The notes under the pieces are model-generated. The model saw nothing but the letters and a program-made list of their open reading frames with translations. It was not told the DNA's origin and did not search any database. Source: Pannonibacter sp. SL95 (GTDB lineage Bacteria > Pseudomonadota > Alphaproteobacteria > Rhizobiales > Stappiaceae). From it: a DNA stretch of 64,000 nt. The stretch lies in NCBI RefSeq assembly GCF_026672425.1, contig NZ_JAPPRC010000003.1, positions 912,501-976,500 of the forward strand. Direction: 5' to 3'. The stretch's first letter is position 1, and each line of letters opens with the position of its first letter. Of the stretch, positions 30,274 to 51,037 are shown piece by piece. The position numbers and the translations under genes were made by a program.

Positions 30274-30296
30274 GCGTCACCGGAGGGGCTGACTGA

Positions 30297-31561: not shown

Positions 31562-32911
31562 TCAGGCCTTGGACAGGCCGGCCGCCAGACCGTCCGCTAT
31601 CGTGGCGACATCGGCAGAGGTGATCACCAGCGGGGGCGACAGGATGATGTTGTTGCCCGACACGCGGATCATGATCCCCGCCTCGTAGGCCCCGTCGGCA
31701 ACGGCTGCCATCACCTTCTTGTCGAGGGGCTTCTTGCTGGCGCGGTCGCTGACCAGTTCGAGCGCGGCCATCAGCCCCTTGCTGCGCACGTCGCCGACCA
31801 CATCGAAGCGTGCCTTGAGGTCCGCCAGCACGGCGGCCAGCTCCTCGCCCCGTGCGGCGGCATTGCCGGCGAGGTTCAGGCGCTTCGTTTCGGCAAGGGC
31901 GGCGAGCCCTGCCGCGCAGCCGACCGGATGACCCGAATAGGTGTAGCCGTGGCCGATGGCGCCGAAGGAGGTGCGGTCCGCCTCGAAGACGTCGGCGACC
32001 TTCTGGCTGATCAGGGTGGCGCCCAGCGGGAAGTAGCCGGAGGTTATGGCCTTGGCGATGGTCATCATGTCCGGCTTGACGCCCCACAGCCGCGAGCCCG
32101 ACCAGGCCCCTGTGCGGCCGAAGCCGGTGACCACCTCGTCGGCGATCAAGAGGATGCCATGCCGGTCGAGCACCTCGCGCAGCATCGGCATGAATGTCTC
32201 ATGCGGGACGATGACGCCGCCCGCGCCCAGCACCGGCTCCATGATGAAGGCGGCAATTGTGTCGCCGCCCTGGAAGGCGATCTCGTCCTCCAGCGCGCGG
32301 ATGCAAAGCTTGGCGAGCTTCGCCGGATCGGTCTCGTCAAAGGGATTGCGATAGGTCCAGGGGGCGGGGATGTGGAAGCAGCCCGGCAGCAGCGGCTCGT
32401 AGTTGCGGCGGAAATTGGCGTTGCCGTTGACGGAGGCCCCACCGAAATGGGTGCCGTGATAGCCCTTCTTCAGCGCCAGGAACTTGGTCCGGTCGGCCTC
32501 GCCCTTGATCTTCCAGTACTGGCGGGCAAGACGCAGGGCAGATTCCACCGAATCCGAGCCGCCGGAGGTGAAGAAGCTGCGCACCATGCCTTCGGGGGCG
32601 AAGAACTCCGCCAGCTCATAGGCCAGCTCGATCGAGGGGCCGGTCGAGGTGCCGCGGAAACCGGAATAATAGGGCAGCTCTGCCAGCTGGCGGGCGATTG
32701 CCTCCTTCACCGGATCGCTGGAATAGCCAAGGTTGACGTTCCACAGGCCGCCGACCGCATCCAGCACTGACCGGCCGTCGATGTCGGTTACAGTCACGCC
32801 TTCACCCTTCATGATGACGCGGGGTGGATTGGCCTGCATCTCGGCCGGATGGGCCATTGGATGCCAGATTGAGCGGGCGTTGTTTTCCGTCAGGAAGTTC
32901 ATGTCGCGCAT
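31562..32911 (-). CDS. Class III PLP-dependent aminotransferase (omega-transaminase type)
   Basis: A 449-residue fold-type I enzyme that moves an amino group from an omega- or beta-amino compound to pyruvate or a similar acceptor. The N-terminus SIWHPMAHPAEM is typical of the omega-amino-acid:pyruvate group. YHGTHFGGASVNG binds the cofactor, LLIADEVVTGFGRTG holds the conserved Asp, TIAKAITSGYFPLGA the PLP Lys, and GYTYSGHPVGCAAGLA the phosphate-binding Thr region. The start at 32911 has GAGGAG 6 bases upstream. It is the last gene of the leftward operon headed by the IclR regulator. Confidence 0.92.
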   Translation of the reverse strand: MRDMNFLTENNARSIWHPMAHPAEMQANPPRVIMKGEGVTVTDIDGRSVLDAVGGLWNVNLGYSSDPVKEAIARQLAELPYYSGFRGTSTGPSIELAYELAEFFAPEGMVRSFFTSGGSDSVESALRLARQYWKIKGEADRTKFLALKKGYHGTHFGGASVNGNANFRRNYEPLLPGCFHIPAPWTYRNPFDETDPAKLAKLCIRALEDEIAFQGGDTIAAFIMEPVLGAGGVIVPHETFMPMLREVLDRHGILLIADEVVTGFGRTGAWSGSRLWGVKPDMMTIAKAITSGYFPLGATLISQKVADVFEADRTSFGAIGHGYTYSGHPVGCAAGLAALAETKRLNLAGNAAARGEELAAVLADLKARFDVVGDVRSKGLMAALELVSDRASKKPLDKKVMAAVADGAYEAGIMIRVSGNNIILSPPLVITSADVATIADGLAAGLSKA

Positions 32912-32931
32912 GGCGCACTCCTCTTGGAGGA

Positions 32932-33603
32932 TCAGAAGGGGGAGGGAAGACCGAGATGGCGGAGCGCCTCGGCGTAGGACTGGTCAGGGCGGATGACATC
33001 GAAGTGCACGCAGATCATGCCGGCCGCCTCGCCGCCGCGGATGTTGCGAAGCTGGTCATCGACAAAGACGCAGTCGCCGGCCGGCAGCTGCAGCGCGTCC
33101 GTGACGGCGGCATAGGCGCGGGGATCGGGCTTGAGAATGCCGCTGTAGGTCGCGTCGACGATCACCTCGAAGTCGGCGAGGAACGGCAGTTTCTGCCGGA
33201 AATCAGCGCCGTAGAAGAGATCCAGTTCGTTCGACAGGATCGCGAGCCGCTTGCCGGCCGCCTTGGCAAGGGCGATGGATTTCAGCGCTTCCGGCCGCAT
33301 GACGGCTTCAGGATCGGCCCCTCGGGCGCGCTGGACAAAGGTTTCCATCTTCGTCCAGGTCTCACCCAGCAGGGCACCGGTCTCGCGGGTGCGCGTCATC
33401 CAGTAGTCGCGTTCGGAAACTTCGTCGCGCTGCATCGCCTGCCACAGCGCATCTGTCTCAGATCCCTCTGCCGGCGCAAACGGTCCGCGCCAGGTTAGGG
33501 TACCGGGCGCAAGGCCAAGCGCTGCCTCGGTCAGGTCATGGGTCTCGAACAGTGTCCGCGTCACCACGCCGCCGAAGTCGAGGACAAGAGCCTGGGCCGT
33601 CAT
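32932..33603 (-). CDS. HAD-superfamily hydrolase
   Basis: A 223-residue haloacid-dehalogenase-fold protein. Motif I is LVLDFGGVVT, where the second Asp is Gly; motif II is AILSNE, and motifs III/IV are GILKPDPRAYAAV and CVFVDDQLRNIRGGEAAGM. The DFGG form of motif I occurs in the epoxide-hydrolase/acid-phosphatase-like subgroup and lacks the general acid Asp, so phosphatase activity may be altered. Its ATG overlaps the stop of the Tm-1-like gene by 4 bases, and the aminotransferase follows 20 bases later. Confidence 0.87.
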   Translation of the reverse strand: MTAQALVLDFGGVVTRTLFETHDLTEAALGLAPGTLTWRGPFAPAEGSETDALWQAMQRDEVSERDYWMTRTRETGALLGETWTKMETFVQRARGADPEAVMRPEALKSIALAKAAGKRLAILSNELDLFYGADFRQKLPFLADFEVIVDATYSGILKPDPRAYAAVTDALQLPAGDCVFVDDQLRNIRGGEAAGMICVHFDVIRPDQSYAEALRHLGLPSPF

Positions 33604-34874
33604 GCCGCCGCTCCCTCTGCTGCCGGGGCACCCGGTTCGATGAGGCCTGCCGCGACCCAGCGGTCGAAAAGGGCGAGGGCGGTGTCGGTGAATTCAGCGC
33701 TGTTGATGTGTCCGTCGATCTCGACCAGCTCGGCATTGGCGGGAACGGTCCGGCGCATCTCGTCGAGGAATGCGGCAAGGCTTTCGGGGTCGTGCAGCGG
33801 CTCGCCCTCCTGGTCCCATTGCTGGATGCCACCGTTCGGCAGCAGAAAGGTGACGGGTCCGGTCGCCTTTGCCAGCTTGCGCCCGATTTCGCGCGCCACT
33901 TCGCGCCGCCCATCGGGGCCGGTTGTGACTGAGGCGAGCAGGCGGTTGTGGGCGTGGTAGGGGCGGTCGGCGAACTGGCCGGGAACGGGTTGCCAGGTCG
34001 GAAAATCGACCATGTCGATGGCACCGGGGGCGACGATCTGCGGAATGCCGGCAAGTCCGGCGCTTTCCAGCCGGTCAGCGCCGGAGGTCACGACGGAGCC
34101 GTTGAGGTGATTGGCCACCTCCTGCAGGCTGAAGTCGAGCACGGCGGCAAAGCGCTTCTGTGCGGCGAGCGCTTCAAGGGCGCGGCCGCCCATGCCGGTG
34201 GTGTGGAAGACCACGACCTCGTAGCCGCGTTTCTCCAGTTCAGGGCGCAAGCGCACCATGTAGGACAGGCAGCTCTTGCCAAGTGAAGACATGGCGACGA
34301 CCGGGCGGGCCTGAAGCGGGCGCTGGGCGCTGCGGGCCGCGCCGACTACAGCGCCGCAAGCCTGCGAGAGCACGGCGCGGCAGGTCTCGTTGAGACCATA
34401 GAGCCCACCGGCCCAGAGGATCATCATCAGGTCAGCGGCGACCCGTTCCGGCGGCACCAGATGCGAATAGGAAATGGTGGAGACGACAAACTTCGGCACG
34501 CCGAGCGGCAGGGCAAGGGCCACATCCAAGGCGAGGTCAGTGCCCATGGTGCCGCCCAGTATCAGTGCGCCATCGATCTCGCCGCGCTCATGCAGCTGAC
34601 GCGCCAGAGTGGAGGCGCCGAGGGCCATGGCGGACATGGCGGTGTTCTCGTCACCACTTGCGGCAATGGCTTCGATGGTCGTTTCTGCCGCCGCTGCGAC
34701 CGCATGCTTGTCATGTTCAGGAATATACGGCGGGTCACCGAGCACGCTGACATCCATCATGACCGGGCGTCCCCCAGCCTCCTGGATCTTCTCGGCCATG
34801 TAGGTCAGCTCGTCGGCCTTCGTGTCGCCGGTGCCGACAAGCAGGATCGCGGGCGGTCGTACGCCTCTGGTCAT
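33600..34874 (-). CDS. Tm-1-like ATP-binding domain protein (UPF0261)
   Basis: A 424-residue protein of the Tm-1/UPF0261 family. The ATP-site segment ILLVGTGDTKADEL at the N-terminus, LILGGTMGTDLALDVALALPLGVPKFVVSTI in the middle and VFHTTGMGGRALE further on are family hallmarks. In tomato the same domain is the ATP-binding inhibitor of tobamovirus replication; the bacterial function is not known. Bacterial members often neighbour a TIM-barrel partner of the phosphoenolpyruvate hydrolase-like family; none is seen in this window. It sits in the IclR operon, 18 bases behind the regulator gene. Confidence 0.88.
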   Translation of the reverse strand: MTRGVRPPAILLVGTGDTKADELTYMAEKIQEAGGRPVMMDVSVLGDPPYIPEHDKHAVAAAAETTIEAIAASGDENTAMSAMALGASTLARQLHERGEIDGALILGGTMGTDLALDVALALPLGVPKFVVSTISYSHLVPPERVAADLMMILWAGGLYGLNETCRAVLSQACGAVVGAARSAQRPLQARPVVAMSSLGKSCLSYMVRLRPELEKRGYEVVVFHTTGMGGRALEALAAQKRFAAVLDFSLQEVANHLNGSVVTSGADRLESAGLAGIPQIVAPGAIDMVDFPTWQPVPGQFADRPYHAHNRLLASVTTGPDGRREVAREIGRKLAKATGPVTFLLPNGGIQQWDQEGEPLHDPESLAAFLDEMRRTVPANAELVEIDGHINSAEFTDTALALFDRWVAAGLIEPGAPAAEGAAA

Positions 34875-34892
34875 GGTTCAAGGTCCCTCTGG

Positions 34893-35654
34893 TTATCTTT
34901 TTTGGCGGATGTCCAGTCCGTAAAGCGCTGCGGACAGGCGGCTGGCCGCAGCCTGCGCTGCCGAATTCAGCTCGGCGAGGCGCGCGTCATCGACACGCAC
35001 TTCCGGCGCGGCGATGGAAATCGTTCCGACCGGCAACCCATCCGGTGAGAGGACCGGCGCGGCAGTGCTGATCACCCCAGGTTCGAGGCCATTCCGGCTG
35101 ACCGAGGTGCCGCGCGCCCGCGTCTCGTTGATGCGCGCGCGCAATGCTTCGGGATCGGTAACGGTGTGCGGCGTGAAGGCCTTCAGCGGCTGCGCCAGAA
35201 ACGCCTCGCGCTGCTCCTCGGGCAAAAACGCAAGAAGGGCGAGGCCTGACGCCGTTGCATGCAGCGGATAGCAGGAGCCGACATCGACGATGACGCGATT
35301 GGCGCGGGGTGATGTCTCCACATGCACGGTCCACAGCTCGTGGCCGGAGAACTCGCTGAGGTGGCAGGTTTCCTCTGTTTCCTCGTTGAGCGCCTTCACC
35401 ACCGGAATGGCGGTGCGCAGGAACGGGAACCGGGCTTCGCGGATCCGGGCGAGGCGAACCGGGGCTGCGCCGATGCGGTAGCGCTTGGTTGCCTTGTCCT
35501 GCTCGATGAAACCGTGCGCCTCAAGATCGACCAGCATCCGGCGGGCGGTAGCCTTGTCGAGGACCGCAAGCCGGGCGATCTCCGACAGGCCTGTGTCCTC
35601 GCTGAGCGAGGCAACCAGGTTCAGGAGCGACAGCGCCTTGCCCACAGTGCTCAC
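34893..35654 (-). CDS. IclR-family transcriptional regulator
   Basis: A 253-residue regulator. The start is GTG at 35654 with GGGAGGA just upstream; an in-frame ATG at 35684 would include the ribosome site. The N-terminal winged helix (STVGKALSLLNLVAS, then LSEIARLAVLDKATARRMLVDLEAHGFIEQ) binds DNA, and the C-terminal GAF-like effector domain runs from about residue 75 (ETCHLSEFSGHELWTVH to GTISIAAPEVRVDDARL). It heads the leftward operon and is divergent from the TctC gene. An inverted repeat in the 140-base gap is its probable operator, controlling both directions. Confidence 0.92.
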   Translation of the reverse strand: MSTVGKALSLLNLVASLSEDTGLSEIARLAVLDKATARRMLVDLEAHGFIEQDKATKRYRIGAAPVRLARIREARFPFLRTAIPVVKALNEETEETCHLSEFSGHELWTVHVETSPRANRVIVDVGSCYPLHATASGLALLAFLPEEQREAFLAQPLKAFTPHTVTDPEALRARINETRARGTSVSRNGLEPGVISTAAPVLSPDGLPVGTISIAAPEVRVDDARLAELNSAAQAAASRLSAALYGLDIRQKR

Positions 35655-35733
35655 GGTGATCCTCCCAGATCGATAACATCGCAATTAACTTGACAGCAGC
35701 CGGATTCATTTGCAAGTCTATATTTGAAATGAA

Positions 35734-35750
35734 GGTTCACATAATGAACC
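35734..35750. promoter_or_regulatory. Inverted repeat GGTTCA-N5-TGAACC, candidate IclR operator
   Basis: GGTTCA (35734-35739) and TGAACC (35745-35750) with a 5-base spacer lie between the divergent IclR and TctC genes, 44 bases before the TctC start. Size and symmetry suit an IclR-family dimer. A TTGACA at 35690-35695 and TATATT at 35719-35724 are nearby but too far apart for a normal promoter pair. Confidence 0.65.
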
Positions 35751-35794
35751 GATAAGGCCAAAGGCCACCGGGAACAGCAGAAGAGGACGGAACC

Positions 35795-36751
35795 ATGCAG
35801 AAGGCATTTCTCGCCGCTGTGGCGGCAGCAGTGACAGCAACAGCTCCGATTGGCATGTCGGGCGCAGCACAGGCCGAGTATCCGGAAAAGCCGGTCAGCT
35901 TCGTGGTGCCCTTTCCCCCCGGCGATCTGGAGGACGTGCTGACGCGCATGATCGCGGAAGACTTCCAGGCGAAGTACGGCGTCGCGGCAGCGGTCATCAA
36001 CAAGCCCAGCGATGGCGGTCCGTTCCCGGGCGCGGTTGATGTGGCGGGCGGCAAGGCGGATGGCTACACGGTCGGCTCGTTCGTCGTGGACATTCCGGTC
36101 ATCGGGCCGGAGGTCGGCATTCCGGCGCTCAACCCCAATCCGTTTGAGCCGGTCGGCATTTTCCTGACCTATCCCTTCGTGATCGCCACGCTGAAGGATG
36201 CGCCCTACGACACGATGGCACACCTGGCCAAGCACGTGAAGGATACGGGTGACAGCGTCGCGCTCGGCCACTTCGGATCGTTCCTGCTGCCGACCCAGGC
36301 AACGCTGGCTGCGGCAAAGGTGATGGGCTTCGAGTGGGGCGCGGAAGCGGCCAATGACGCGCTCGACTGCAACACGCTGGCCTCGGGCGACTTCGATGTC
36401 GTGACCACCACGATGCAGCAGCTGCTCCCCTGCCTCGACAAGGTGCAGATCCTGGCGACGATCACCGACAGCCCGATCCCCGTGATCCCGGATGCGCCGC
36501 AGCTGTCGTCAGTTGCGCCCGAGCTGAAACTGTCGCTCTGGAACGGGCTGTTCGTGCCCAAAGGCACGCCGCAGGATGTGAAGGACAAGCTTGCCGCCGT
36601 GGCGAAGGAGACCATGGTTTCCGAGCGAGCCCGCAAGCTCTCCGCCGATACCGGCGCCATTCTCTACTGGAAGGATGCGGCTGCGTCAGACGCGCAGATC
36701 GAGGCGGACAAGGCTGTCGTCTCGCGCGTGAACACGCTTCTCGGCCAGTAA
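35795..36751 (+). CDS. Tripartite tricarboxylate transporter substrate-binding protein (TctC/Bug family)
   Basis: A 318-residue periplasmic binding protein. The signal peptide ends SGAAQA, and the mature N-terminus EYPEKPVSFVVPFPPGDLEDVLTR is the TctC/Bug signature region, in which the usual GGxxD reads GDLED. Segments GGKADGYTVGSF and WNGLFVPKGTPQDVKDKLA are also typical. The TctC family binds carboxylates and many other small acids and amides. It starts the rightward operon with TctB and TctA, with a hairpin right behind it. Confidence 0.92.
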   Translation: MQKAFLAAVAAAVTATAPIGMSGAAQAEYPEKPVSFVVPFPPGDLEDVLTRMIAEDFQAKYGVAAAVINKPSDGGPFPGAVDVAGGKADGYTVGSFVVDIPVIGPEVGIPALNPNPFEPVGIFLTYPFVIATLKDAPYDTMAHLAKHVKDTGDSVALGHFGSFLLPTQATLAAAKVMGFEWGAEAANDALDCNTLASGDFDVVTTTMQQLLPCLDKVQILATITDSPIPVIPDAPQLSSVAPELKLSLWNGLFVPKGTPQDVKDKLAAVAKETMVSERARKLSADTGAILYWKDAAASDAQIEADKAVVSRVNTLLGQ

Positions 36752-36759
36752 GCGGAAAA

Positions 36760-36784
36760 GGCCGGTGCACCCCGCGCACTGGCC
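36760..36784 (+). terminator. Hairpin behind the TctC gene
   Basis: GGCCGGTGC (36760-36768) pairs with GCACTGGCC (36776-36784), with one G-U pair. It lies 8 bases after the TctC stop and 45 bases before TctB. No T run follows; the likely role is mRNA stabilisation or partial read-through, favouring the binding protein. Confidence 0.5.
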
Positions 36785-36829
36785 ACTTCTCGCCAAACGT
36801 CTTCAGCATCTCCATCAGACGGCGGTACC

Positions 36830-37369
36830 ATGCAGTCCGACGACACCTCGCCTCACGTCTTCCCCAATGCGCGCCGACCGGGCGAGCTGCTGTTCGCCAT
36901 GATCTTTCTGGGGCTGTCAGTTCTGCTTCTGGCGCAGATCGGCTGGCAGACCCAGTGGCTGCCCGGCAAGGGGCTGGCCGCGCAGCCGCGCACCTGGCCG
37001 TTTATCGGTCTGGCCGGCATGATGCTGTTCGGCACGCTGCATCTCATCGCCACCAACCGGGTCCGTCGCACGCCGGGCCGGTGGCGCGAGGCGCTTCTTT
37101 GGGTGCGGTCCCTGGAATTCGTGGCCTGGTATCTGGCCTATGTCTTCAGCGTACCCTTCCTTGGGTACCTGCCCGCAACGCTGCTGTTCTGCGTCAGCCT
37201 GACCTGGCGCTGCGGCTACAGAAGCGCCCTTGCGCTGGGAACTGCCGCAGCCTTCGGGCTTGGGGTGGTGTTGTTCTTCCGCACCCTGCTGGCGGTGAAG
37301 ATCCCCGGCGGCGCGCTCTACGAGCTGCTGCCTCAGCCGCTCAACTCCTTTTTCCTCACGTATTTCTGA
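36830..37369 (+). CDS. Tripartite tricarboxylate transporter small membrane subunit (TctB family)
   Basis: A 179-residue protein with four hydrophobic segments (LLFAMIFLGLSVLLLAQI, PFIGLAGMMLFGTLHLI, VAWYLAYVFSVPFLGYLPATLLF and ALALGTAAAFGLGVVLFF), the layout of TctB. It forms the membrane part together with TctA, 12 bases downstream. The order TctC-TctB-TctA is standard. Confidence 0.88.
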   Translation: MQSDDTSPHVFPNARRPGELLFAMIFLGLSVLLLAQIGWQTQWLPGKGLAAQPRTWPFIGLAGMMLFGTLHLIATNRVRRTPGRWREALLWVRSLEFVAWYLAYVFSVPFLGYLPATLLFCVSLTWRCGYRSALALGTAAAFGLGVVLFFRTLLAVKIPGGALYELLPQPLNSFFLTYF

Positions 37370-37381
37370 CCGGAACGGACC

Positions 37382-38869
37382 ATGGACCTGCTGTTTTCCA
37401 GTCTCGAGATCCTCGCCCGCTGGGATGTCTTTGCCGCACTCGTCATCGGGTCGGTCGGCGGCGTGATTGTCGGGGCCATGCCGGGGGTCGGCGCGGCGGT
37501 CGCCATCGCCATCCTGCTGCCCGCAACCTTTTCGCTGGAGCCGATCGTCGGCCTGACGGCACTCCTTGGCATCTATGGCTCGTCGATGTTCGGCGGCGCG
37601 ATCCCTGCGATCCTGATCAACACGCCCGGAACGCCGGTCAATGCGCTGACCACCTATGACGGCTATCCGATGACCCGCCGCGGTGAGGCGCGCCGCGCCC
37701 TCAGCCTTGCCTATTCGGCCAGCTTCTTTGGCGGCATCTTCTCGATCCTCTGCCTGATCCTGCTGGCGCCGGTGCTTGCCTCCATCGCGCCGATGTTCGG
37801 AGCGCGGGAGATCTTTCTGGCGGCGCTTCTCGGCATCGTGCTGGTGGTGCTGACCCATCGCGGCCAGATCCTTGCGGCCGGCATGCTGGTCTGCTTCGGC
37901 ATCTTTCTGAAGACGGTTGGGCTGGAAGGCACCGCCTATACCCAGCGCTACACCTTCGGCCAGACCTGGCTGGCTTCGGGTGTTGACCTGATCGTGGTGG
38001 TGCTCGGCATCTTTGCCCTGTCGCAGGCCTTCCTGCTGCTGACCCAGCGCGACACGACCTACGAGCTGCCGCCAGTGAAGGGCAAGTTCCTGCAGGGCCT
38101 CACCGAGATCTTCAAGTACAAGCGCCTGGCCACCGTCGGCTCCAGCTTTGGCGTCATCTGCGGCATGATCCCGGGCGTCGGCGAGTTCATGTCGCAGTTC
38201 CTCTCCTACAGCTATGCCCAGCGGACATCGAAGACGCCGGAACTGTTCGGCAAGGGCAACCCCGAAGGCATCGTCGCCTCGGAGGCAGCCAACAACTCGG
38301 TGCCGCCCGCCGCCATGATCCCGCTGCTAGCCCTCGGCATCCCGGGCGAGGAACTGACGGCCATGATGCTGTCGGTGTTCTATGTCCACAACGTCATCCC
38401 CGGGCCGCAGCTGTTCCGCGACCAGATGGACTTTGTGCTGGCGCTCTACATCGCCCTCTTCGTGCTCAACGTGCTGGTCATCCTGTTCCTGATGACCTCC
38501 ACCAACATCCTCATGCAGGTGATGCGCATCCCCAGCCGCTTCCTTGGCATGATGATCCTCACCTTCAGCCTCATCGGCGTCTATTCGCTGCGCAACTCAC
38601 TGACGGACTGCGCCATTGCCGCCGGCTTTGGCGTCTTTGGCTTCATTCTCAAGCGGCTGGACCTGCCGACCTCGCCGGTGATCCTCGGCATCGTGCTGGG
38701 CGGGCTGATGGAAACAAAGCTGCGCACGGCCATGACCCGGGTGAAGTCGCCCCTCGACTTCATCGACCGTCCGATCGCCTTCATCCTCTTTGCCATGATC
38801 ATCCTGGCGATCGGCCTGCACATCACCACCCATCTGCGCAACCGCGCCAAGGACAAGGCCCATGCTTGA
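37382..38869 (+). CDS. Tripartite tricarboxylate transporter large membrane subunit (TctA family)
   Basis: A 495-residue protein with about twelve membrane helices. The family signature is repeated in both halves: GAMPGVGAAVAIAILLPATFSLEPIVGLTALLGIYGSSMFGGAIPAILINTPGTPVNA in the first, and ICGMIPGVGEFMSQFLSYSYAQRTSK with NNSVPPAAMIPLLALGIPGEELTA in the second. It moves the substrate delivered by TctC, driven by an ion gradient. Its end overlaps the aldehyde dehydrogenase gene by 8 bases. Confidence 0.94.
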   Translation: MDLLFSSLEILARWDVFAALVIGSVGGVIVGAMPGVGAAVAIAILLPATFSLEPIVGLTALLGIYGSSMFGGAIPAILINTPGTPVNALTTYDGYPMTRRGEARRALSLAYSASFFGGIFSILCLILLAPVLASIAPMFGAREIFLAALLGIVLVVLTHRGQILAAGMLVCFGIFLKTVGLEGTAYTQRYTFGQTWLASGVDLIVVVLGIFALSQAFLLLTQRDTTYELPPVKGKFLQGLTEIFKYKRLATVGSSFGVICGMIPGVGEFMSQFLSYSYAQRTSKTPELFGKGNPEGIVASEAANNSVPPAAMIPLLALGIPGEELTAMMLSVFYVHNVIPGPQLFRDQMDFVLALYIALFVLNVLVILFLMTSTNILMQVMRIPSRFLGMMILTFSLIGVYSLRNSLTDCAIAAGFGVFGFILKRLDLPTSPVILGIVLGGLMETKLRTAMTRVKSPLDFIDRPIAFILFAMIILAIGLHITTHLRNRAKDKAHA

Positions 38870-43337: not shown

Positions 43338-43626
43338 TGTGCCCGCCGCGTCTCTTCAGGGTGGAGGAGACCCGGCGGATCCGGCCCTTAATGCCGGATG
43401 AACTTTTGCTTGATCCAGCGCGCAGGCCGGTGAAGCCTGCCTTGAGCTGGACGAGCGCTGCAAATACCGCTGGGCTGGGGTCTCTTACCCTCGGCCCCCA
43501 AAAGCGAAAACCATTCAGGCCACCACTGACGCTGGCCTTCAAAAATCAAGACCAAGTCGCGGCACCGCTGCCGCCCCGGGGATCTGTCCGGGCCTGTTTC
43601 ATCTTCAAGTGGGGGGAGGATCACCC

Positions 43627-45306
43627 ATGTCCGCAGTTCACGCCGTCTCCGATCTGGTTCTGACCAACGGCCGCATCTACACGGTTGACCCGGCGCGCAG
43701 CAGCGCCGAGGCGCTGGCCGTGCGCAATGGCCGGATCATCGCCGTGGGCACCGACGCGGACGTGCGCCCGCACATCGGACCTGAGACGCGGGTCGTCGAT
43801 CTCGGCGGCCGGCTGGCGATGCCCGGCATCGTCGACATTCATACGCACATGATGATGGGTGGGCAGGCGGAGCTGTTCGAGCTGCGCTTCGGCAACACGC
43901 TGCGCCGCGAGGCCATTCTGGATCAGGTGCGCGCGGCGGCGGAGACGACGCCCGAGGGCAAGTGGATCATCGGCGCGCAATGGGGCAGCGATCTCCTTGC
44001 CCTGTTCAACAGCGAGGAGTCCCTCGCCCTGCTGGACGCGGCCAGCCTCGGCCGTCCGGTCATGCTGCGCGACGATACCTATCACAACCGCTGGGTCAAC
44101 ACGGCGGCCCTGCGGCTGGCCGGCATCACCGAGGACACCCCCGATCCGGACCAGGGCAGCTTCGGCCGTGACCCGTCGTCCGGCCGCCTCACCGGCATCA
44201 TGATCGAGGCCGCGGCCGGTCTGATCGAGCGCACCATCGTCGCCAGCGGCCACTACACCGAGGACATGGACCGGGCCGCCGTCGCCCATTCCATCGCCAC
44301 GCTCAACCAGCATGGCGTGACGGCCTTCCTCGATGCGGCGGCGATGCAGCCCGTGCTGGCGGCACTGAAGGGACTGGATGATCGCGGCCTGCTGACCGCC
44401 TGGGCCAGCGGCGCCATGCCGGTCACCGAACCGTCGTTCCTGTTCGGCGTGGCAGGCGAGGAGCTGTTTGCCCTGCGCGACACGTTCCGCAGCCGGCACG
44501 TGCGGCCCGACTTCACCAAGATCTTCCTCGACGGCGTGCCCGGTGCGCGCACCGCGGCCTTCCACGAACCCTACACGCCCGATGCGGTCTTCGGCTGCTG
44601 CTTCCGCGGCACGACGCTGGCGACCGTACCGGAACTGGTGCGCTGGATCGGCCGCTGCGAGGACCTCGGCCTGTCGGTCAAGATCCACTGCGCGGGCGAT
44701 GCGGCCGTGACCATGGCGCTGGATGCGCTGGACGTGGTGCGCTCCTTCAACGGCCCGACGCGGCTGACGCATCACATCGCCCATGCCAGCTACATCCGGG
44801 ACGCGGACATCCCCCGCTTCCGCGAGCTGGGCATGGGGGCCGACTTGTCGCCCTTCATCTGGTTCCCGACCGCCTTCCTCGAGGGCCACAAGCAGACCAT
44901 GGGCGTCGAACGCGCCACCCGCTTCTGGCCCAACCGCGACCTGCTCGACGCCGGTGCCCTGATGGCCGGTGGCAGCGACTGGCCGGTGATCCCCAACCCG
45001 AACCCCTGGACCGGCATCGAGGGTCTGGTGACGCGTCAGAACCCGCATGGCGATTTCCCGGGCGAGAGCCTGTGGCCGGAACAGGCGCTCGATATCGCCA
45101 CCGTGCTCGAGATCTTCACCATCAACTCGGCCCGCATGATGGGTCTGGGCGATGTGGTCGGCTCGCTGGAGATCGGCAAGTCCGCCGACATCATCGTCCT
45201 CGACCAGGACGTGCTGACCTGCCCGGCCGGTGCGATCGGCAAGACCCGGGTGCTGCAGACCTGGTTCGAGGGGCGGCTGGTGCATGGCACGGAGGCGCTG
45301 GCATGA
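43627..45306 (+). CDS. Amidohydrolase, YtcJ-like (amidohydrolase_3)
   Basis: A 559-residue metal-dependent hydrolase. The start at 43627 has GGGGGAGG 7 bases upstream. The metal motif is MPGIVDIHTHMMMGG (HxH), with further ligands expected in KIFLDGVPGARTAAFHEPY, VKIHCAGDAAV, HHIAHASYI and the catalytic Asp of AGGSDWPV. The C-terminal VVGSLEIGKSADIIVLDQD is the usual beta-sandwich closing segment. The YtcJ group acts on amides, N-acyl amino acids and related bonds. It is translationally coupled to a CobW GTPase, which may load its metal, and upstream of an amino-acid-type ABC importer. Confidence 0.9.
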   Translation: MSAVHAVSDLVLTNGRIYTVDPARSSAEALAVRNGRIIAVGTDADVRPHIGPETRVVDLGGRLAMPGIVDIHTHMMMGGQAELFELRFGNTLRREAILDQVRAAAETTPEGKWIIGAQWGSDLLALFNSEESLALLDAASLGRPVMLRDDTYHNRWVNTAALRLAGITEDTPDPDQGSFGRDPSSGRLTGIMIEAAAGLIERTIVASGHYTEDMDRAAVAHSIATLNQHGVTAFLDAAAMQPVLAALKGLDDRGLLTAWASGAMPVTEPSFLFGVAGEELFALRDTFRSRHVRPDFTKIFLDGVPGARTAAFHEPYTPDAVFGCCFRGTTLATVPELVRWIGRCEDLGLSVKIHCAGDAAVTMALDALDVVRSFNGPTRLTHHIAHASYIRDADIPRFRELGMGADLSPFIWFPTAFLEGHKQTMGVERATRFWPNRDLLDAGALMAGGSDWPVIPNPNPWTGIEGLVTRQNPHGDFPGESLWPEQALDIATVLEIFTINSARMMGLGDVVGSLEIGKSADIIVLDQDVLTCPAGAIGKTRVLQTWFEGRLVHGTEALA

Positions 45307-46445
45307 CCGGTGCCGCACCTCTTCCGCTCACGGTCCTGACCGGATTTCTCGGGGCAGGCAAGACGACGCTCCTCAACCGGCTGCTGCGCCAGCCGGCGCT
45401 GGACGGCACGCTGGCGATCATCAACGAATTCGGCGCGATCGGCCTTGATCACCTGCTGGTGGAGACGAGCGAGGAGCGTTTTGCCCTGCTCGACAACGGC
45501 TGCATCTGCTGCACCGTGCGGGATGATCTCGTCACCACACTGACCGGGATCCTCGCCCGGCGCGACAAGGGCGAGCTGGCCTCCGTCACCCGCATCCTGA
45601 TCGAGACCACGGGTCTCGCCGATCCGGTGCCCGTGCTGCATACGCTGCTGGTTGCCCCCGCGCTGTCGGGCCGGCTGGCGGTGGAGGGGGTCGTGACCGC
45701 CGTTGATGCCGTCAACGGCCTTGCCACCCTCAACGCCCATCCGGAGGCGGTGAAACAGGTGGGCCTTGCCGAGCGCATCGTCATCACCAAGACGGATCTG
45801 GCCAGCGACGCGGAGCTGGAGCGTCTGCGCATTGCATTGGGCCTCATCAATCCGGCCGCGCGGGTGCTGGAAGCCGACATGGGGCATGTCGCGGCCGCGC
45901 GTCTCATCGGCACGGGCTTCGATCCGGATGCGCTCGGCCGGGCTGCTGTCGACTGGTTCGCCTCCGCCACAGCGCCGGCCGGCTTCGTCTGCAGCGATCC
46001 GCAGGCGGGCGATCCGGGCCACGTGCATGGCCCCGGCTGCGGCCATCATCTCCCTGCTGGAGTTGTGAGGACCGGACATGCCGGCATCGAGACCCATGCT
46101 TTCGTCATCGACCAGCCGCTGTCGTCGCCCGCCTTCTTCCGCTGGCTTGAGTATCTGACCTTGCTCAAGGGCGAGAGCCTGTTGCGGATGAAGGGGCTCG
46201 TCGAACTGGACGACGACCGCGACCGTCCGCTGCTGGTGCAGGGCGTGCAGCATGTGCTGCATCCGCCCGTCCGCCTTCCGGCCTGGCCGGACCAGACCCG
46301 AGGCACCCGCCTCGTCTTCATCGTGCGCGGCATTCCGCGCGACGTGATCGAGCGAACCCTGGCCCGGTTCGCCGACGTGGATGCGGCCGCTATCAAGAAC
46401 CCGGCAAGGGGCGCGATGGCCGCATCGGGGAACATGGCCGCCTGA
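45303..46445 (+). CDS. CobW/COG0523-family GTPase, putative metal chaperone
   Basis: A 380-residue G3E GTPase. Walker A GFLGAGKT (14-21) is followed by the family Cys motif CICC (67-70, in DNGCICCTVRDDL), and IVITKTDL holds the guanine-specific TKxD. A His-rich patch, PGHVHGPGCGHH, occurs near residues 238-249, and the CobW C-terminal domain follows (THAFVIDQPLSSPAFFRWLEYL). COG0523 proteins deliver Zn, Co or other metals to client enzymes. Here the client is probably the amidohydrolase, whose stop codon overlaps this start (ATGA). No Zur-like site is obvious, since the gene lacks its own promoter region. Confidence 0.9.
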   Translation: MTGAAPLPLTVLTGFLGAGKTTLLNRLLRQPALDGTLAIINEFGAIGLDHLLVETSEERFALLDNGCICCTVRDDLVTTLTGILARRDKGELASVTRILIETTGLADPVPVLHTLLVAPALSGRLAVEGVVTAVDAVNGLATLNAHPEAVKQVGLAERIVITKTDLASDAELERLRIALGLINPAARVLEADMGHVAAARLIGTGFDPDALGRAAVDWFASATAPAGFVCSDPQAGDPGHVHGPGCGHHLPAGVVRTGHAGIETHAFVIDQPLSSPAFFRWLEYLTLLKGESLLRMKGLVELDDDRDRPLLVQGVQHVLHPPVRLPAWPDQTRGTRLVFIVRGIPRDVIERTLARFADVDAAAIKNPARGAMAASGNMAA

Positions 46446-46495
46446 ACTGCTGTTTCTGGATCAACCGCGATCAACGCGATTGGGAGGGTTATCAC

Positions 46496-47683
46496 ATGAA
46501 GTCCATTTCGATGCTTCTGGGCGGCGTCGCCCTTGCCTGCCTCGCCGGCCTGTCCGCAACGACCGCCGCCGAGGCGGCCGGCCCCACCTGCAAGGATGGC
46601 GTGATCCGTCTGGGCGCCGTCTCCACCATCACAGGCCCGGCCGACTTCAGCGAGGTTCCCGAGGCTGCCGCTGCCGTCTTCGACGCGGTCAATGCCAAGG
46701 GCGGTCTCAACGGCTGCAAGATCGAGTACACGATCTCCGACGACAAGGCCGATCCGGCCGTGGCGGCCCAGGCCGCGCGCGATCTCATCGACAACAAGGA
46801 AGTGGTGGCCCTCGTCGGCTCGGGCAGCCTGCTCGACTGCGCCGTCAACGCCACCACCTACAAGCGTAAGGGCGTGCTGTCGGTGCAGGGCCTTGGCGTC
46901 GACGCCGCCTGCTTCAACGCCCCGTCGGTTGCCCCGGTCAACGTGGGGCCTTACACGCTGTCGACGGCGATGGCCTATTACGCCACCAACCAGCTCAAGG
47001 CCGAGAAGGTCTGCGGCTTCTTCATCATCATCGGCGGCACCCAGGAAGCCTACAAGGGCGCCATCGAGACCTGGGAAAAGATCTCGGGCAAGAAGATCCA
47101 CCTGCTCGACATGACCCTGCCGTTCCAGGGGGATCTCACGCCTTATGTCATCAAGGCGCGCGATGCGGGCTGCGATGCGGTGATTCAGAACGCGGTCGAG
47201 CCGGGCGTGGTGCAGTGGGTGAAGACGGCGGACGCGCAGAAGATCACCGGCATCAACTGGCTGTTCCTTGCCCCCGGCTACACCCAGGAAGTTGCCAAGG
47301 CGCTGGCCGACAGCACTCAGCCGGTCTACGTCGGCACCGAGTGGGAGCCCTTCACGGAAACCGGGTCTGCGGCCAACAAGGACTGGATCGCCACCATGAC
47401 GGCGGCCGGCAAGCCGCTGACGGCCTTCTCCCAGGGCGGCTATCTCGCAGCCACGGTGATGCTGGATGTCCTCTCCGGCATCAACGGCGAAGTGACCCGC
47501 GAGAGCGTGACCGAGGCCCTGCAGAAGATGCAGCCGAAGTCCTATGAACTCGCCGGCACGCCCTACGTCTTTGGCGAGGGTGACCGTCATGCCCCGATGC
47601 AGGCGACCAAGGTGATGAAGCTCGACAAGGGCAAGTGGACCGTCGAGACGCCGGACTGGGTCGTTCTCCCGTCCGCCAACTGA
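46496..47683 (+). CDS. Branched-chain-amino-acid-type ABC transporter substrate-binding protein
   Basis: A 395-residue periplasmic binding protein of the LivK type (Peripla_BP_6). The signal peptide ends TTAAEAA, and the mature part begins KDGVIRLGAVSTITGPADFSEVPEAAAAVFDAVNAKGGLNG, the usual opening. Later VVALVGSGSLLDCAV contacts ligand. Six or more Cys are present, unusual for the family. The bound ligand may be any amino acid, amide or urea-like compound. GGGAGG precedes the ATG by about 7 bases. It is the first gene of the importer and is followed by a hairpin. Confidence 0.92.
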   Translation: MKSISMLLGGVALACLAGLSATTAAEAAGPTCKDGVIRLGAVSTITGPADFSEVPEAAAAVFDAVNAKGGLNGCKIEYTISDDKADPAVAAQAARDLIDNKEVVALVGSGSLLDCAVNATTYKRKGVLSVQGLGVDAACFNAPSVAPVNVGPYTLSTAMAYYATNQLKAEKVCGFFIIIGGTQEAYKGAIETWEKISGKKIHLLDMTLPFQGDLTPYVIKARDAGCDAVIQNAVEPGVVQWVKTADAQKITGINWLFLAPGYTQEVAKALADSTQPVYVGTEWEPFTETGSAANKDWIATMTAAGKPLTAFSQGGYLAATVMLDVLSGINGEVTRESVTEALQKMQPKSYELAGTPYVFGEGDRHAPMQATKVMKLDKGKWTVETPDWVVLPSAN

Positions 47684-47691
47684 CCGACACC

Positions 47692-47717
47692 GGTGGCACG
47701 GCGTTCGCCGTGCCACC
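47692..47717 (+). terminator. Hairpin between the binding-protein and permease genes of the Liv-type importer
   Basis: A perfect 11-bp stem (GGTGGCACGGC at 47692-47702, GCCGTGCCACC at 47707-47717) with a 4-base loop starts 8 bases after the stop. No T run follows, so it most likely limits read-through or protects the upstream mRNA. Confidence 0.6.
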
Positions 47718-47740
47718 GTCCTGCAGCGGGAACACTTGCC

Positions 47741-48610
47741 ATGAATGCGCTTCTCACCTCGGCCGTGGCCGGGCTGACTGCCGCCGGCGCCTATGCGCTG
47801 CTCGGGGTCTGCGCGGTCTTCACCTTCCGCCTTGTCGCCGTGGTCAATTTCACCGGCGCGGCCATCGGCACCGCCGGCACCTTCTCCATGATCGGTTTCA
47901 TTTCCCTCGGCGTGCCGCTGTGGCCTGCCGTGGTGCTCGGCATTCTTGTCGGCACGCTGGCCGGCGCGCTCATCGGCCTCGTCATGACGCAGTGGTTCTC
48001 GGAAGCCACCGCAACCACCAAGGCGGCGGTCACGGCGGCGCTGCTGGTCGGGATTGTCGCACTGGGGCTGCGGCTCACCGGCGGCCAGAGCCCGAAGGAG
48101 TTTCCGACCCTGTTCCCCGGCTCGGCCTTCCGTCTCGCAGGGGTGGAGGTGACGGTGGCCTCTGTCCTGACCGTCGTGCTGGCGCTGGTGTTCACCCTGC
48201 TTGCCGACGCCTTCCTCAACCGCACCCGCACGGGCCTGCACTTGCGCGCCCTGTCGGAACGGCCCATGGCAGCCGAACTGCTGGGCGTGCGCGTGCGCAT
48301 CCTCGCCCTGCTGGTCTGGGCGGTGACGGGGGCCTTCACGACCTTCGCGCTGATGATCATCGCGCCGCAGCGCTCGCCCGACTTCATGTCGCTGTCGTTG
48401 CTGGTGGTTCCCGCCCTTGCGGCGGCGCTGGTGGGCGCGTTCCGCTCCTTCCCGCTGGCGCTGGCCGGCGGCCTCACGATCGGCATCGTCGAAGGCATGA
48501 GCAGTGCCATCGACGGCATCAGCCAGTACCGGGGCATCCTGCCCTTCTTTGTCATCCTGGCCGTTCTTCTGTGGTCGCAACGTGGAGCCCGCTGGGATGA
48601 AGCGCGCTGA
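47741..48610 (+). CDS. Branched-chain-amino-acid-type ABC transporter permease (LivH-like)
   Basis: A 289-residue membrane protein with about eight helices. The start MNALLTSAVAGLTAAGAYALLGVCAVFTFRLVAVVNFTGAAIGTAGTF matches LivH-type permeases. LRALSERPMAAELLGVRVRILALLVWAVTGAFT is the cytoplasmic coupling loop that docks on the ATPase. The ATG at 47741 is preferred to the longer in-frame start. It overlaps the next gene by 14 bases. Confidence 0.9.
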   Translation: MNALLTSAVAGLTAAGAYALLGVCAVFTFRLVAVVNFTGAAIGTAGTFSMIGFISLGVPLWPAVVLGILVGTLAGALIGLVMTQWFSEATATTKAAVTAALLVGIVALGLRLTGGQSPKEFPTLFPGSAFRLAGVEVTVASVLTVVLALVFTLLADAFLNRTRTGLHLRALSERPMAAELLGVRVRILALLVWAVTGAFTTFALMIIAPQRSPDFMSLSLLVVPALAAALVGAFRSFPLALAGGLTIGIVEGMSSAIDGISQYRGILPFFVILAVLLWSQRGARWDEAR

Positions 48611-50333
48611 TCTCACCTCCTGTCTCGCCCTTGTCGTCGTCACCGCCGTGGCGGGCCTTGCGGTCTACGGGCTGCTGCCGTCCTACTGGGTGTTCCTCGC
48701 CACTGCCGTCGTCATCACGGCGATCTCGCTGCAGGGCCTCGGTCTGGTGACTGGCCGCGCGGGCATGATTGCCCTGTGCCAGATGTCCTTTGCCGGCGTC
48801 GGCGCCTGGACCGTCGGCTGGCTCAATGTCATTGAGGCTCCGGGCGGCCTGCCGGTCTGGGTCGTGCTCGGCGGTCTGGCGGCCGTGCCGTTTGGCGTCG
48901 CCATCGGCCTGCCGGCCCTGCGCCTGCGCGGCATCAACCTCGCCATCGTGACGCTGGCCTTTGCGGCGGCCTTCGACGTGATCCTGGCGACGATCACCTT
49001 CCCCGGACAGACCAGCTTCCTGTCGGTTGCCCGACCGGAGCTGTTCGACAGCGACGAGGGCTATTTTGTCTTCGCGCTGCTGTTCTATCTGGCGGTCGCG
49101 CTCGGCCTTTCGATCCTGTCACGCTCCCGGCTCGGCAGCGCCTTCCTCGCCATCCGTCACTCCGAGCGGGCCGCGGCGGCGCTCGGCGTGTCGATCCCGC
49201 TGACCAAGCTGTCGGCCTTTGCCATCTCGGCCTTCATCGCGGGCCTGTCCGGGGGACTTCTGGCGGGCTATCTCGGCACGCTCGTCTCGGAAAACTTCTC
49301 GATGATGCAGTCGCTGGCGCTGTTTGCGGTCGCCACCATGGCCGGGGCCCAGCTCGCCGAGGGGGCGATCATCGGCGGCATGCTGGTGACGCTGTTTCCC
49401 GAGCTGCTGCGCCGCCTTGGCCTGCCGCAGGATGTGGGCAACGTGCTCTTTGCCCTCGGCGCCGTCCAGGCGCTGGCCAGCGGCGAGACCATGGCCGAGA
49501 CCTTGCGGCGCAATCTTGCAAGCCTGACGGCAAGGCTGGGACTGCCGCGCTTTGCTCCCTCGGCACCCGTCGGCACCGTGTTGCCGCCGCCCCGGAACCG
49601 GCGTGATCCGGCGGCTGCCGGGCCGACGCTGGTCATCGACCGGCTCGGCGTGCGCTACGGGCAGGTCGTCGCGCTGTCGAACGTCAGCCTGAGCGTGCCG
49701 GCCGGAACCGTGGTCGGGCTGATCGGTCCCAACGGCGCCGGCAAGTCGACCTTCATCGACGCGGTGACCGGGTTCCTCCCGGCCTACGAGGGGTCGGTGC
49801 GCCTGGAGGGGCGGCCACTCGAAGGGCTGCCGGCCCATGAGCGCGCGCGCCTCGGCGTCCGCCGCACCTGGCAGACCACCCGCATTCCGCCCGATCTCTC
49901 GGTGGGTGCCTATCTCGACCTCGCCGCTCCCGGTCTGAGCCCGGAGGAAAGCGCCGCCGTGCTCACCTGGATCGGCTGTCCGTCGCCTGAGACCCTGGTG
50001 CAGGCGGTGGATGCCGGCACCCGGCGGCTGCTGGACGTGGCCGGGGTCGTCGCCGCACGGCCGGCGGTGGTGCTGCTCGATGAGCCGGCGGCCGGCCAGT
50101 CCTATGACCAGGCGCTGCGGCTTGCGCGGCGCATTGCCGAGATCCCCAAGCTGTTCGGCTCGTCCGTGCTTCTGGTGGAACATGACATGGATCTGGTGCG
50201 CGGCGCCTGCTCGCAGATCACGGTCTGCGACTTCGGCCAGGTCATCGCCTCCGGTCCGCCGCTGCGCGTGCTGGAGGAACCCGTGGTGAAGAAGGCCTAT
50301 CTCGGCATAGCGCTGGAGGAGGATGCGGCATGA
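48597..50333 (+). CDS. Fused LivM-like permease and LivG-like ATPase with a degenerate signature motif
   Basis: A 578-residue fusion. Residues 1 to about 315 form the LivM permease (GLVTGRAGMIALCQMSFAGVGAW, AIRHSERAAAALGVSI coupling loop). A Pro/Arg linker at about 320-343 joins it to the LivG ATPase. Walker A GPNGAGKST (377-385), Q-loop RRTWQTTR, Walker B VVLLDEPAAG (491-500) and the switch His in LLVEHD (H529) are intact. The ABC signature, normally LSGGQ or LSYGQ, reads VDAGT (471-475). Such a site cannot complete ATP hydrolysis on the partner subunit in the usual way. The gene overlaps LivH by 14 bases and LivF by 4. Confidence 0.9.
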   Translation: MKRADLTSCLALVVVTAVAGLAVYGLLPSYWVFLATAVVITAISLQGLGLVTGRAGMIALCQMSFAGVGAWTVGWLNVIEAPGGLPVWVVLGGLAAVPFGVAIGLPALRLRGINLAIVTLAFAAAFDVILATITFPGQTSFLSVARPELFDSDEGYFVFALLFYLAVALGLSILSRSRLGSAFLAIRHSERAAAALGVSIPLTKLSAFAISAFIAGLSGGLLAGYLGTLVSENFSMMQSLALFAVATMAGAQLAEGAIIGGMLVTLFPELLRRLGLPQDVGNVLFALGAVQALASGETMAETLRRNLASLTARLGLPRFAPSAPVGTVLPPPRNRRDPAAAGPTLVIDRLGVRYGQVVALSNVSLSVPAGTVVGLIGPNGAGKSTFIDAVTGFLPAYEGSVRLEGRPLEGLPAHERARLGVRRTWQTTRIPPDLSVGAYLDLAAPGLSPEESAAVLTWIGCPSPETLVQAVDAGTRRLLDVAGVVAARPAVVLLDEPAAGQSYDQALRLARRIAEIPKLFGSSVLLVEHDMDLVRGACSQITVCDFGQVIASGPPLRVLEEPVVKKAYLGIALEEDAA

Positions 50334-51037
50334 CCAGAACACTCGACGTCTCCGGCCTCGTCATCAACCGGGCCGGTCTGCCGGTGGTGCGCGGGGTCAG
50401 CCTTTCGGCGCAGAAGGGGCAGATCAGCGTCCTGCTCGGCGCCAACGGGGCCGGCAAGACGACGCTGCTGGAAGGGCTTTCCGGGATCATCCCGACCAGC
50501 GGGGGCGACATTGCCCTCAACGGGCGGAGCGTGATCGCTGCCCGCGCCGGCGAGCGGGCTCGGGCGGGCCTGTCCCATGTCGAACAGGGGCGGACCGTGT
50601 TCCGCCAGCTGTCGACCGAGGAAAACCTGCTCGTCGGCATGGCTCCGGGCGCCGATCTCGCCGATGCCTATGACCTCTTTCCCGAGCTGCTCAACCGGCG
50701 CGGCGTCAGGGCCGGGCTCCTGTCCGGCGGCGAGCAGCAGATGCTGGTGATTGCCCGTTCTCTGCTCACCCGTCCGGAGGTGATCCTGATCGACGAGATG
50801 TCGGCTGGCCTTGCGCCGGTGGTGGTGCAGCGGCTGATGGCGGCGGTGCGCCGGCTGGCGGACGCCGGCCTTGCCATCCTGCTGGTGGAACAGTTCGCGG
50901 CGCTGGCGCTCCGGATCGCAGATCATGCCTATGTCATGCGGCGGGGCGAACTGGTCTATGACGGTCTGCCGCAGCCGCTGCTCGCCGATCCGGACCGTCT
51001 GCATCACTTGTACCTTGGTGATGTCCAGGCGGCGTGA
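50330..51037 (+). CDS. Branched-chain-amino-acid-type ABC transporter ATPase (LivF-like)
   Basis: A 235-residue ATPase. Walker A is GANGAGKTT, the signature LSGGEQQML is intact and Walker B is VILIDEMSAG. The position of the switch His is Gln (ILLVEQF), as usual for LivF. In a LivG-LivF pair the LivG Walker A would therefore meet an intact signature, while the LivF Walker A would face the degenerate LivG signature. It is the last gene of the importer. Confidence 0.93.
   Translation: MTRTLDVSGLVINRAGLPVVRGVSLSAQKGQISVLLGANGAGKTTLLEGLSGIIPTSGGDIALNGRSVIAARAGERARAGLSHVEQGRTVFRQLSTEENLLVGMAPGADLADAYDLFPELLNRRGVRAGLLSGGEQQMLVIARSLLTRPEVILIDEMSAGLAPVVVQRLMAAVRRLADAGLAILLVEQFAALALRIADHAYVMRRGELVYDGLPQPLLADPDRLHHLYLGDVQAA

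Follow-up and report, generated by a model that had tools for sequence, protein, structure and literature searches.

A conserved IclR-linked gene set of Pannonibacter sp. SL95, probably an upper pathway for phenolic arylethylamines

Introduction

The closest described systems to the locus treated here, a set of 17 genes at positions 31562-51037 of a 64,000-nucleotide stretch of the Pannonibacter sp. SL95 genome (the window), are those for the catabolism of aromatic biogenic amines. For Pseudomonas putida U, Arcos et al. 2010 reportedly described a 3,4-dihydroxyphenylacetate catabolon for tyramine and dopamine, in which the amine is oxidised by an oxidase or dehydrogenase to an arylacetaldehyde, which goes on to an arylacetate and to homoprotocatechuate meta-cleavage, the course that we propose here. 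For Pseudomonas aeruginosa PAO1, Cuskey and Olsen 1988 reportedly described how aromatic biogenic amines are broken down, with the same homoprotocatechuate meta-cleavage end route, and to our knowledge the amine-step genes of that strain are not assigned. MoaF is associated with the Arthrobacter-type oxidation of tyramine and phenylethylamine. A tyramine amine oxidase in Arthrobacter is reported in PMC2991359.

The locus shares with the Arthrobacter copper amine oxidase system the substrate class that we propose for it, but it would differ from that system and from P. putida U in the enzyme of the amine step: the 17 genes include no amine oxidase or dehydrogenase, a domain scan found no copper amine oxidase among them, and a class III transaminase (wTA) is present instead as the candidate. 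A flavoprotein gene with an amine-oxidoreductase match does lie just beyond the last of the 17. We know of no Tm-1-like protein (Tm1), HAD hydrolase, glutamate-1-semialdehyde-aminomutase-like aminotransferase (GSAT), two short-chain dehydrogenases (SDR1 and SDR2), amidohydrolase (AHyd) or CobW protein from the P. putida U pathway. A further comparison is offered by pairs of a kinase and a class III phospholyase (ETNPPL, 5g4i), which in some plasmid loci take the place that GSAT-SDR1-SDR2 has in the window type. The lower pathway is known, and we did not find a transaminase-based upper part with Tm-1, HAD, GSAT, SDRs and AHyd-CobW described; the literature searches returned no paper on this gene set, with most subscription journals outside their reach, so that its absence in print is not shown.

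In our view the locus probably encodes an upper pathway, controlled by IclR, for phenolic arylethylamines of the tyramine or dopamine type, with substrates that probably also include beta-hydroxylated or N-substituted forms such as octopamine and noradrenaline. Gene content, conservation among relatives, linkage to homoprotocatechuate (hpa) genes and a shared palindrome are the observations behind this proposal, and we regard the gene set as a real, conserved catabolic regulon. In the pathway, whose substrates and reactions we infer throughout, the TctCBA and Liv-type importers would take up the substrate, AHyd, metal-loaded by its CobW partner, would remove the acyl group from N-acylated forms, wTA would move the amino group to an oxo acid and leave an arylacetaldehyde, the aldehyde dehydrogenase (ALDH) would oxidise this to (hydroxy)phenylacetate, and the homoprotocatechuate enzymes (hpaHGDEF), encoded elsewhere, would cleave the ring. 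GSAT, SDR1 and SDR2 would prepare side chains whose beta carbon carries an oxygen, a task that may fall to the kinase and phospholyase in Rhizobium-type clusters, and Tm1 and HAD are proposed to take part as well; the roles of Tm1, HAD, GSAT and AHyd are all putative.

Conservation and linkage to homoprotocatechuate genes

The scan with GSAT found 132 relatives; the 80 best were retained, 72 of these with an orthologue of at least 64% identity, and the stretches compared extended up to 10 kb either side of GSAT, some being shorter. Within the 72 orthologous loci, SDR1 was found in 64, SDR2 in 61, wTA and ALDH in 46 each, Tm1 in 44, HAD (never without Tm1) in 42, and AHyd in 22. The combination of wTA, Tm1 and AHyd was present in seven (L023, L074, L076, L078, L081, L082 and L085), and of these L023 is almost identical to the window. 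A first-pass annotation had taken the genes on both sides of the IclR regulator as one catabolic locus, a view that the two halves never occurring together would have contradicted; both halves were present in these 7 of 72 loci, and the comparison of conserved neighbourhoods showed the gene combination recurring in the loci of many relatives, so the arrangement is not due to chance. The Variovorax locus has ALDH-wTA-Tm1-HAD-GSAT-SDR-SDR in one run, with no hpaD in that run.

The linkage to the lower pathway was seen at the level of genomes. Among 146 Mesorhizobium genomes (the genus of L025; the statistics ignore kinship), the GSAT orthologue was found in 33, hpaD in 65 and both in 31, that is, in 31 of 33 GSAT-positive genomes in comparison to 34 of 113 GSAT-negative ones (Fisher p 1.9e-11). 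The two genes were on the same contig in 24 of the 31 genomes, within 60 kb in 21 and within 20 kb in 8, and the other three same-contig pairs were 117 kb, 2.3 Mb and 2.4 Mb apart. Eight of the nine closest pairs were compared as stretches, in which unmatched open reading frames may lie between the genes listed, and all eight chosen stretches had the same order within 20 kb: hpa genes, hpaC, hpaB, wTA, HAD, Tm1, IclR, APC permease and ALDH, with GSAT beyond ALDH in all 7 that reach that far. In a sample of 101 genomes drawn evenly over the order, in which hpaD (query from R. leguminosarum) and Tm1 were both taken at E 1e-100, hpaD was found in 11 and Tm1 in 5, and all 5 Tm1 genomes had hpaD (p 5.8e-6, and 5.4e-5 without the window's genome); the pairs were 7-12 kb apart in three of the five, on two contigs in one, and about 704 kb apart in the window's genome. 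For 50 of the 72 orthologous loci, 49 genomes were checked for hpaD at E 1e-100 or better, and 46 had it. Five of the 80 loci (L054, L074, L076, L080 and L088) had structural hpa genes no more than 10 kb from GSAT.

In annotated plasmids of Rhizobium and Agrobacterium, Tm1-HAD-wTA occur with IclR, an APC permease and ALDH, near genes of the 4-hydroxyphenylacetate hydroxylase type, hpaD, hpaE or hpaR, and across the Rhizobium, Agrobacterium, Gemmobacter, Ruegeria and S. fredii plasmids wTA or Tm1 lies near hpa, hmgA, hppD or hpaR, the genes concerned being hppD, hpaR and hpaE for Gemmobacter and hpaR for Ruegeria. In S. fredii NXT3 the genes are found with homogentisate genes and two flavoenzymes, one sarcosine-dehydrogenase-like (DAO+GCV_T) and one of the old yellow enzyme (OYE) type. 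The same two kinds of flavoenzyme flank Tm1 at L110:7472-13281 and in L131, as expected for the N-demethylation of N-methyl aromatic amines. The Shinella genes lie near a pyridoxal phosphate (PLP) decarboxylase of family PF00282, with no hpa gene within the stretch, and the R. leguminosarum cluster also carries such a decarboxylase; the Pseudosulfitobacter wTA-IclR-Tct-ALDH-Tm1 block likewise had no hpa gene within the stretch. A 53% GSAT homologue on a P. aeruginosa plasmid is accompanied by MoaF, an SDR and hpaBC. This cluster, MoaF-GSAT homologue-SDR-hpaB-hpaC at L114:9141-17228, also holds a gene annotated as 2,4'-dihydroxyacetophenone dioxygenase (a cupin by Pfam), which hints at another exit for beta-oxygenated amines.

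The window's genome itself carries an hpaHGDEF-hpaR cluster, in which HpaD scored 422.9 bits against the TIGR02295 equivalog cut-off of 321.4 and HpaE was also above its NCBIfam cut-off, and hmgA is present as well.

The kinase-phospholyase pair was found in 6 of the 12 plasmid loci (L103, L104, L106, L107, L109 and L113), none of which has GSAT, and with the thresholds applied neither member of the pair was found in any of the 72 GSAT loci. The pairs adjoin Tm1-HAD-wTA or Tm1; the kinase is of the APH type, and the class III aminotransferase of the phospholyase kind has 5g4i and 6tor (ethanolamine-phosphate phospho-lyase) as its best solved relatives. From the known families, such a pair would be the expected tool for beta-hydroxy amines. 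This distribution suggests that GSAT-SDR1-SDR2 fulfils an equivalent role through a different chemistry.

A shared palindrome

The gap between the IclR gene and tctC contains a 17-bp palindrome, GGTTCACATAATGAACC (35734..35750), which is proposed as the operator that IclR would bind. The pattern GGTTCA-N5-TGAACC was scanned over 2,303,756 bases in 113 related sequences and gave 43 occurrences in 41 sequences (39 after setting aside 4 that are repeats of one place), in comparison to at most 3 for palindromes with permuted arms, and no occurrence fell inside a gene matched by the queries. The sites lie in the divergent IclR promoter, facing TctC, GSAT, ALDH or the APC permease, before AHyd (L074 and L103) and before Tm1 (L103). 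The exact palindrome was present in 26 of the 43 GSAT loci with an IclR gene and in 0 of the 29 without, and variants such as GGATCA-N5-TGATCC occupy that position in L033, L059 and L068. It is also used in plasmid clusters that have no GSAT (L103, L104, L106-L109 and L112), and L103 has it at three places, in front of AHyd, of Tm1-HAD-wTA and of the permease/IclR pair, an arrangement that connects the amide and amine modules. Judged on sequence, the shared palindrome suggests one regulon. The plasmid of L103 (NZ_CP084753.1) is recorded as Roseateles (UNVERIFIED_ORG); its amine cluster is like those of Shinella and Rhizobium, and the label may be wrong.

In the window the exact palindrome was found once, and sites with at most 2 mismatches numbered 4 vs 1.8 expected. 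One site, GGTTCAAGCATCGAACC at 21346-21362, is one mismatch from the proposed operator and far from the locus, and may be a chance match.

Gene order and features of the locus

The gene set and families named by the first-pass annotation were recovered as 17 genes, with the IclR-family regulator (34893..35684, minus strand, PF09339+PF01614) placed, as described there, between a leftward operon and a rightward series that runs TctC, TctB, TctA, ALDH, GSAT, SDR1, SDR2, a 289-base gap, AHyd, CobW and the Liv-type importer. Its statement that nearly all genes touch or overlap applied to 11 of the 16 junctions, which are within -19 to +20 bases, and not to five larger gaps, namely 110 bases between IclR and TctC (the divergent promoter), 78 between TctC and TctB, 289 between SDR2 and AHyd, and two of 50 and 57 bases. 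The gene list was corrected at several points: SDR1 is split by an in-frame TAG, the 289-base gap precedes AHyd, CobW starts at 45303, and the fused permease-ATPase starts at 48597.

The leftward operon, on the minus strand, ends in a 13-pair hairpin followed by a T tract (31555-31526), an intrinsic terminator on that strand at 31526..31555. It comprises wTA (31562..32911), which matches NCBIfam PRK07481 (NF005683) at 758 bits vs a cut-off of 575, has the omega transaminase 5lh9 as its nearest solved structure and is proposed to be an aromatic amine transaminase; the HAD-IA family hydrolase (32932..33603, PF00702); and Tm1 (33600..34874), a Tm-1-like or UPF0261 protein with both domains of that family (PF06792 and PF23189) and 644 bits vs 556 for NF002676. 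UPF0261 genes typically have a TIM-barrel (TBST) partner gene next to them, and the domain of this partner is absent from the scanned locus proteins. Co-evolution of UPF0261 with the TIM-barrel partner gene is reported in PMC5028733, where UPF0261 is present in 491 of the 504 bacterial genomes that carry a TBST gene.

The rightward series, on the plus strand, begins with the TctC substrate-binding protein (35795..36751, PF03401), TctB (36830..37369, PF07331) and the TctA permease (37382..38869, PF01970). In relatives, an APC (amino-acid-type) permease replaces TctCBA beside IclR and ALDH: TctA was found in 10 and the APC permease in 6 of the 72 GSAT loci, and in 3 and 6 of the 12 plasmid loci, respectively, with no overlap in either set. 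ALDH (38862..40352, PF00171) is proposed to be an arylacetaldehyde dehydrogenase; its closest NCBIfam is PuuC, at 540 bits and under the cut-off of 850. GSAT (40334..41758) matches PRK07046 (NF005453) at 624 bits vs 425, with K296 as the PLP lysine by alignment; identity with HemL, the glutamate-1-semialdehyde aminomutase proper, was rejected at 199 bits vs the hemL equivalog cut-off of 527.3. Its arginines R62 and R63 are kept in 70 of 70 orthologues and, among 25 paralogues, in 5 and 1, respectively, and this contrast marks the orthologues as a distinct group. A second GSAT paralogue, 48% identical, lies in the same genome (G000:C3:742044-743345, L118), and no partner genes were found around it in the compared stretch except a generic 27% ATPase match.

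SDR1 (41755..42567) is interrupted by a TAG at 42013-42015, as seen in the sequence and its alignment to relatives. This stop is private to the window (1 of the 66 aligned matches carries a stop), and the frame is open at this point in the two congeneric genomes that also carry the gene, which is present in 3 of the 5 genomes of the genus. A systematic sequencing error, with GCCGGC read as GCTAGC, was rejected as its cause, since of 67 GCCGGC sites in the close relative L023, 45 are unchanged in the window and only 1 has turned into GCTAGC. Three of the window's 5 GCTAGC hexamers fall within 42011-43140. SDR2 (42564..43337, PF13561) follows, and neither solved structures nor families gave a hint to the substrate of the SDRs.

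The 289-base gap (43338..43626) is possibly a second promoter region and is about 95% identical in L023, L125 and L127; a mobile element was rejected as its nature, the gap being conserved in the genus, with no further copy among the sequences compared. AHyd (43627..45306, PF07969) is of the YtcJ/NfdA-like kind, and its residues H72, H74, K298, H354, H386 and D451, invariant in 11 of 11, are presumably the metal ligands. Among 87 genomes of the family, 3 carry AHyd at 98-100% identity, each of them a member of the window's genus, and the fourth match is only 36% identical; this distribution, together with that of SDR1 in the genus, fits acquisition by transfer or repeated loss. Five of the 23 matched plasmid records with AHyd homologues were examined in context: a 58% homologue sits inside the amine cluster of L103, and a 41% homologue on Paenarthrobacter pTC2 lies beside hpaE, phenol hydroxylase, MoaF and copper amine oxidase. 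CobW (45303..46445, PF02492+PF07683), a COG0523 GTPase with a CICC motif, may serve as metallochaperone for AHyd; assignment as the ZigA metallochaperone was rejected (115.5 bits vs an equivalog cut-off of 600), the protein having generic CobW domains only. The Liv-type importer is made up of a substrate-binding protein (46496..47683, PF13458), a LivH-type permease (47741..48610, PF02653), a fused LivM permease-LivG ATPase (48597..50333, PF02653+PF00005) and a LivF ATPase (50330..51037, PF00005). Solved structures and families gave no substrate hint for CobW or for the Liv binding protein.

Beyond LivF by 57 bases, on the same strand, lies a flavoprotein gene (51095-52072) with a PF01593 amine-oxidoreductase match of 63.9 bits, which among the 80 GSAT loci is shared by L023 alone. 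On the other side, nadC-nadB-nadA adjoin the locus at 26181-31517, leftward, with an MFS transporter gene in between.

Discussion

The first-pass annotation had suggested one pathway with uptake, transamination and oxidation under the control of IclR. The co-occurrence of the two halves and the shared palindrome agree with this, and its guess at the substrate finds no support. Separate importers for an amide and for the matching acid are not indicated, since TctCBA is swapped for the APC permease and the neighbours are genes for phenolic amines and phenylacetate. No linked gene directly supports a lactam or a beta-amino acid either, the linked genes being hpa, MoaF and copper amine oxidase. 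The amide-plus-acid, lactam and beta-amino acid readings were rejected on this ground and are kept only within two of the alternatives below; the amidohydrolase makes an amide possible as an outer substrate.

Several observations weigh against the phenolic arylethylamine reading. The families of wTA and ALDH are broad, and the linked PLP decarboxylase has diaminobutyrate and aspartate decarboxylases as its nearest NCBIfam models, with scores that fall far short of the cut-offs. In the window's genome the hpa genes do not adjoin the locus, and no HpaB homologue was found there at E 1e-20, an empty result that is weak by itself, the HpaB query scoring 755 bits, under the HpaB-2 cut-off of 885; if HpaB is truly missing, catecholic amines such as dopamine could be completed directly, and the breakdown of monophenolic amines would depend on a different hydroxylase or on the homogentisate route. 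In the genome samples, hpaD is also present in the 34 GSAT-negative Mesorhizobium genomes, and in 20 of the 46 GSAT genomes (including 16 of 18 Bradyrhizobium) it was matched only at 54-57% identity and may be another dioxygenase. As to the palindrome, 17 of the 43 GSAT loci with IclR lack the exact site, no site with at most 2 mismatches precedes the window's own AHyd, and in Mesorhizobium loci with two IclR genes the site is only at the GSAT side (L024, L050, L091 and L093), with L076 having none. SDR1 is interrupted in the window's genome, and AHyd homologues at 45% (Streptomyces) and 39% (Pararhizobium and Bosea) stand in other settings.

The alternative that survives best, possible though on balance not expected, is that the pathway serves mainly N-acylated phenolic amines made by plants or microbes, such as hydroxycinnamoyl tyramine or octopamine, with AHyd as the entry enzyme and the Liv importer bringing in the amide. 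AHyd is accompanied by CobW in 21 and by Liv genes in 20 of its 22 loci, is preceded by the palindrome in L074 and L103, and is 36% identical to a protein annotated as NfdA (N-substituted formamide deformylase); many carriers of the gene set also belong to plant-associated genera. These points are set against the 50 of 72 GSAT loci that have no AHyd in the compared stretch and the great breadth of PF07969, and the activity given to AHyd here is a prediction.

We regard as somewhat less likely again a division into two pathways, wTA-HAD-Tm1-ALDH for aromatic amines and GSAT-SDR1-SDR2 with AHyd-CobW-Liv for another compound, such as an aromatic beta-amino acid or its amide, by beta-transamination. 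The modules do separate: of the 72 loci, 37 have wTA+Tm1 and lack AHyd+Liv, 15 show the opposite, 5 have both sets and 15 have neither complete. The remote solved relatives of GSAT include beta-phenylalanine aminotransferase and D-phenylglycine aminotransferase, and a paired arginine may bind a carboxylate, as in aminomutases; such binding by R62-R63, a pair that most paralogues lack, would favour a beta-amino acid as substrate of the GSAT module. A second IclR copy precedes GSAT in 7 of the 8 Mesorhizobium stretches, with the palindrome on the GSAT side only. However, the GSAT loci are themselves linked to hpaD, the palindrome of L103 stands before AHyd, Tm1 and the permease/IclR pair alike, and GSAT, Tm1, wTA and HAD form one run in Variovorax.

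Within the arylethylamine reading, it is a speculative extension, which we hold to be doubtful, that GSAT+SDR1+SDR2 form an undescribed route for beta-hydroxylated phenethylamines such as octopamine and noradrenaline, in which an SDR would oxidise the benzylic hydroxyl and so give an alpha-aminoketone, GSAT would act by aminomutase-like or transaminase chemistry at adjacent carbons, and the product would be oxidised by the second SDR or by ALDH; the route would replace the kinase and phospholyase, and the Tm-1 relatives would be metabolic proteins of the same regulon. It is improbable that the hpa link is mere clustering of catabolic genes in a variable region or on megaplasmids with a non-aromatic amine or amino acid as the substrate. 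In its favour, unrelated pathways are often brought together in catabolic islands, the window's genome has its hpa genes far from the locus, and the models do not show the substrate of the linked PLP decarboxylase to be aromatic. Against it, the genome-level association (5 of 5 and 31 of 33) requires no proximity, and hpa-related genes are neighbours in Rhodobacterales too, as well as of an AHyd homologue on an actinomycete plasmid.

In general, the analysis offers a likely substrate class and a regulon for a gene set often found among rhizobia and their relatives, and the palindrome lets this regulon be mapped in other genomes. It also suggests that bacteria deal with the side-chain oxygen of aromatic amines in either of two interchangeable ways. 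For the Tm-1-like (UPF0261) family, so far uncharacterised, it provides a testable metabolic setting and, if the proposal is true, Tm-1, an antiviral protein of tomato, would have bacterial relatives with a metabolic role in the breakdown of aromatic amines.

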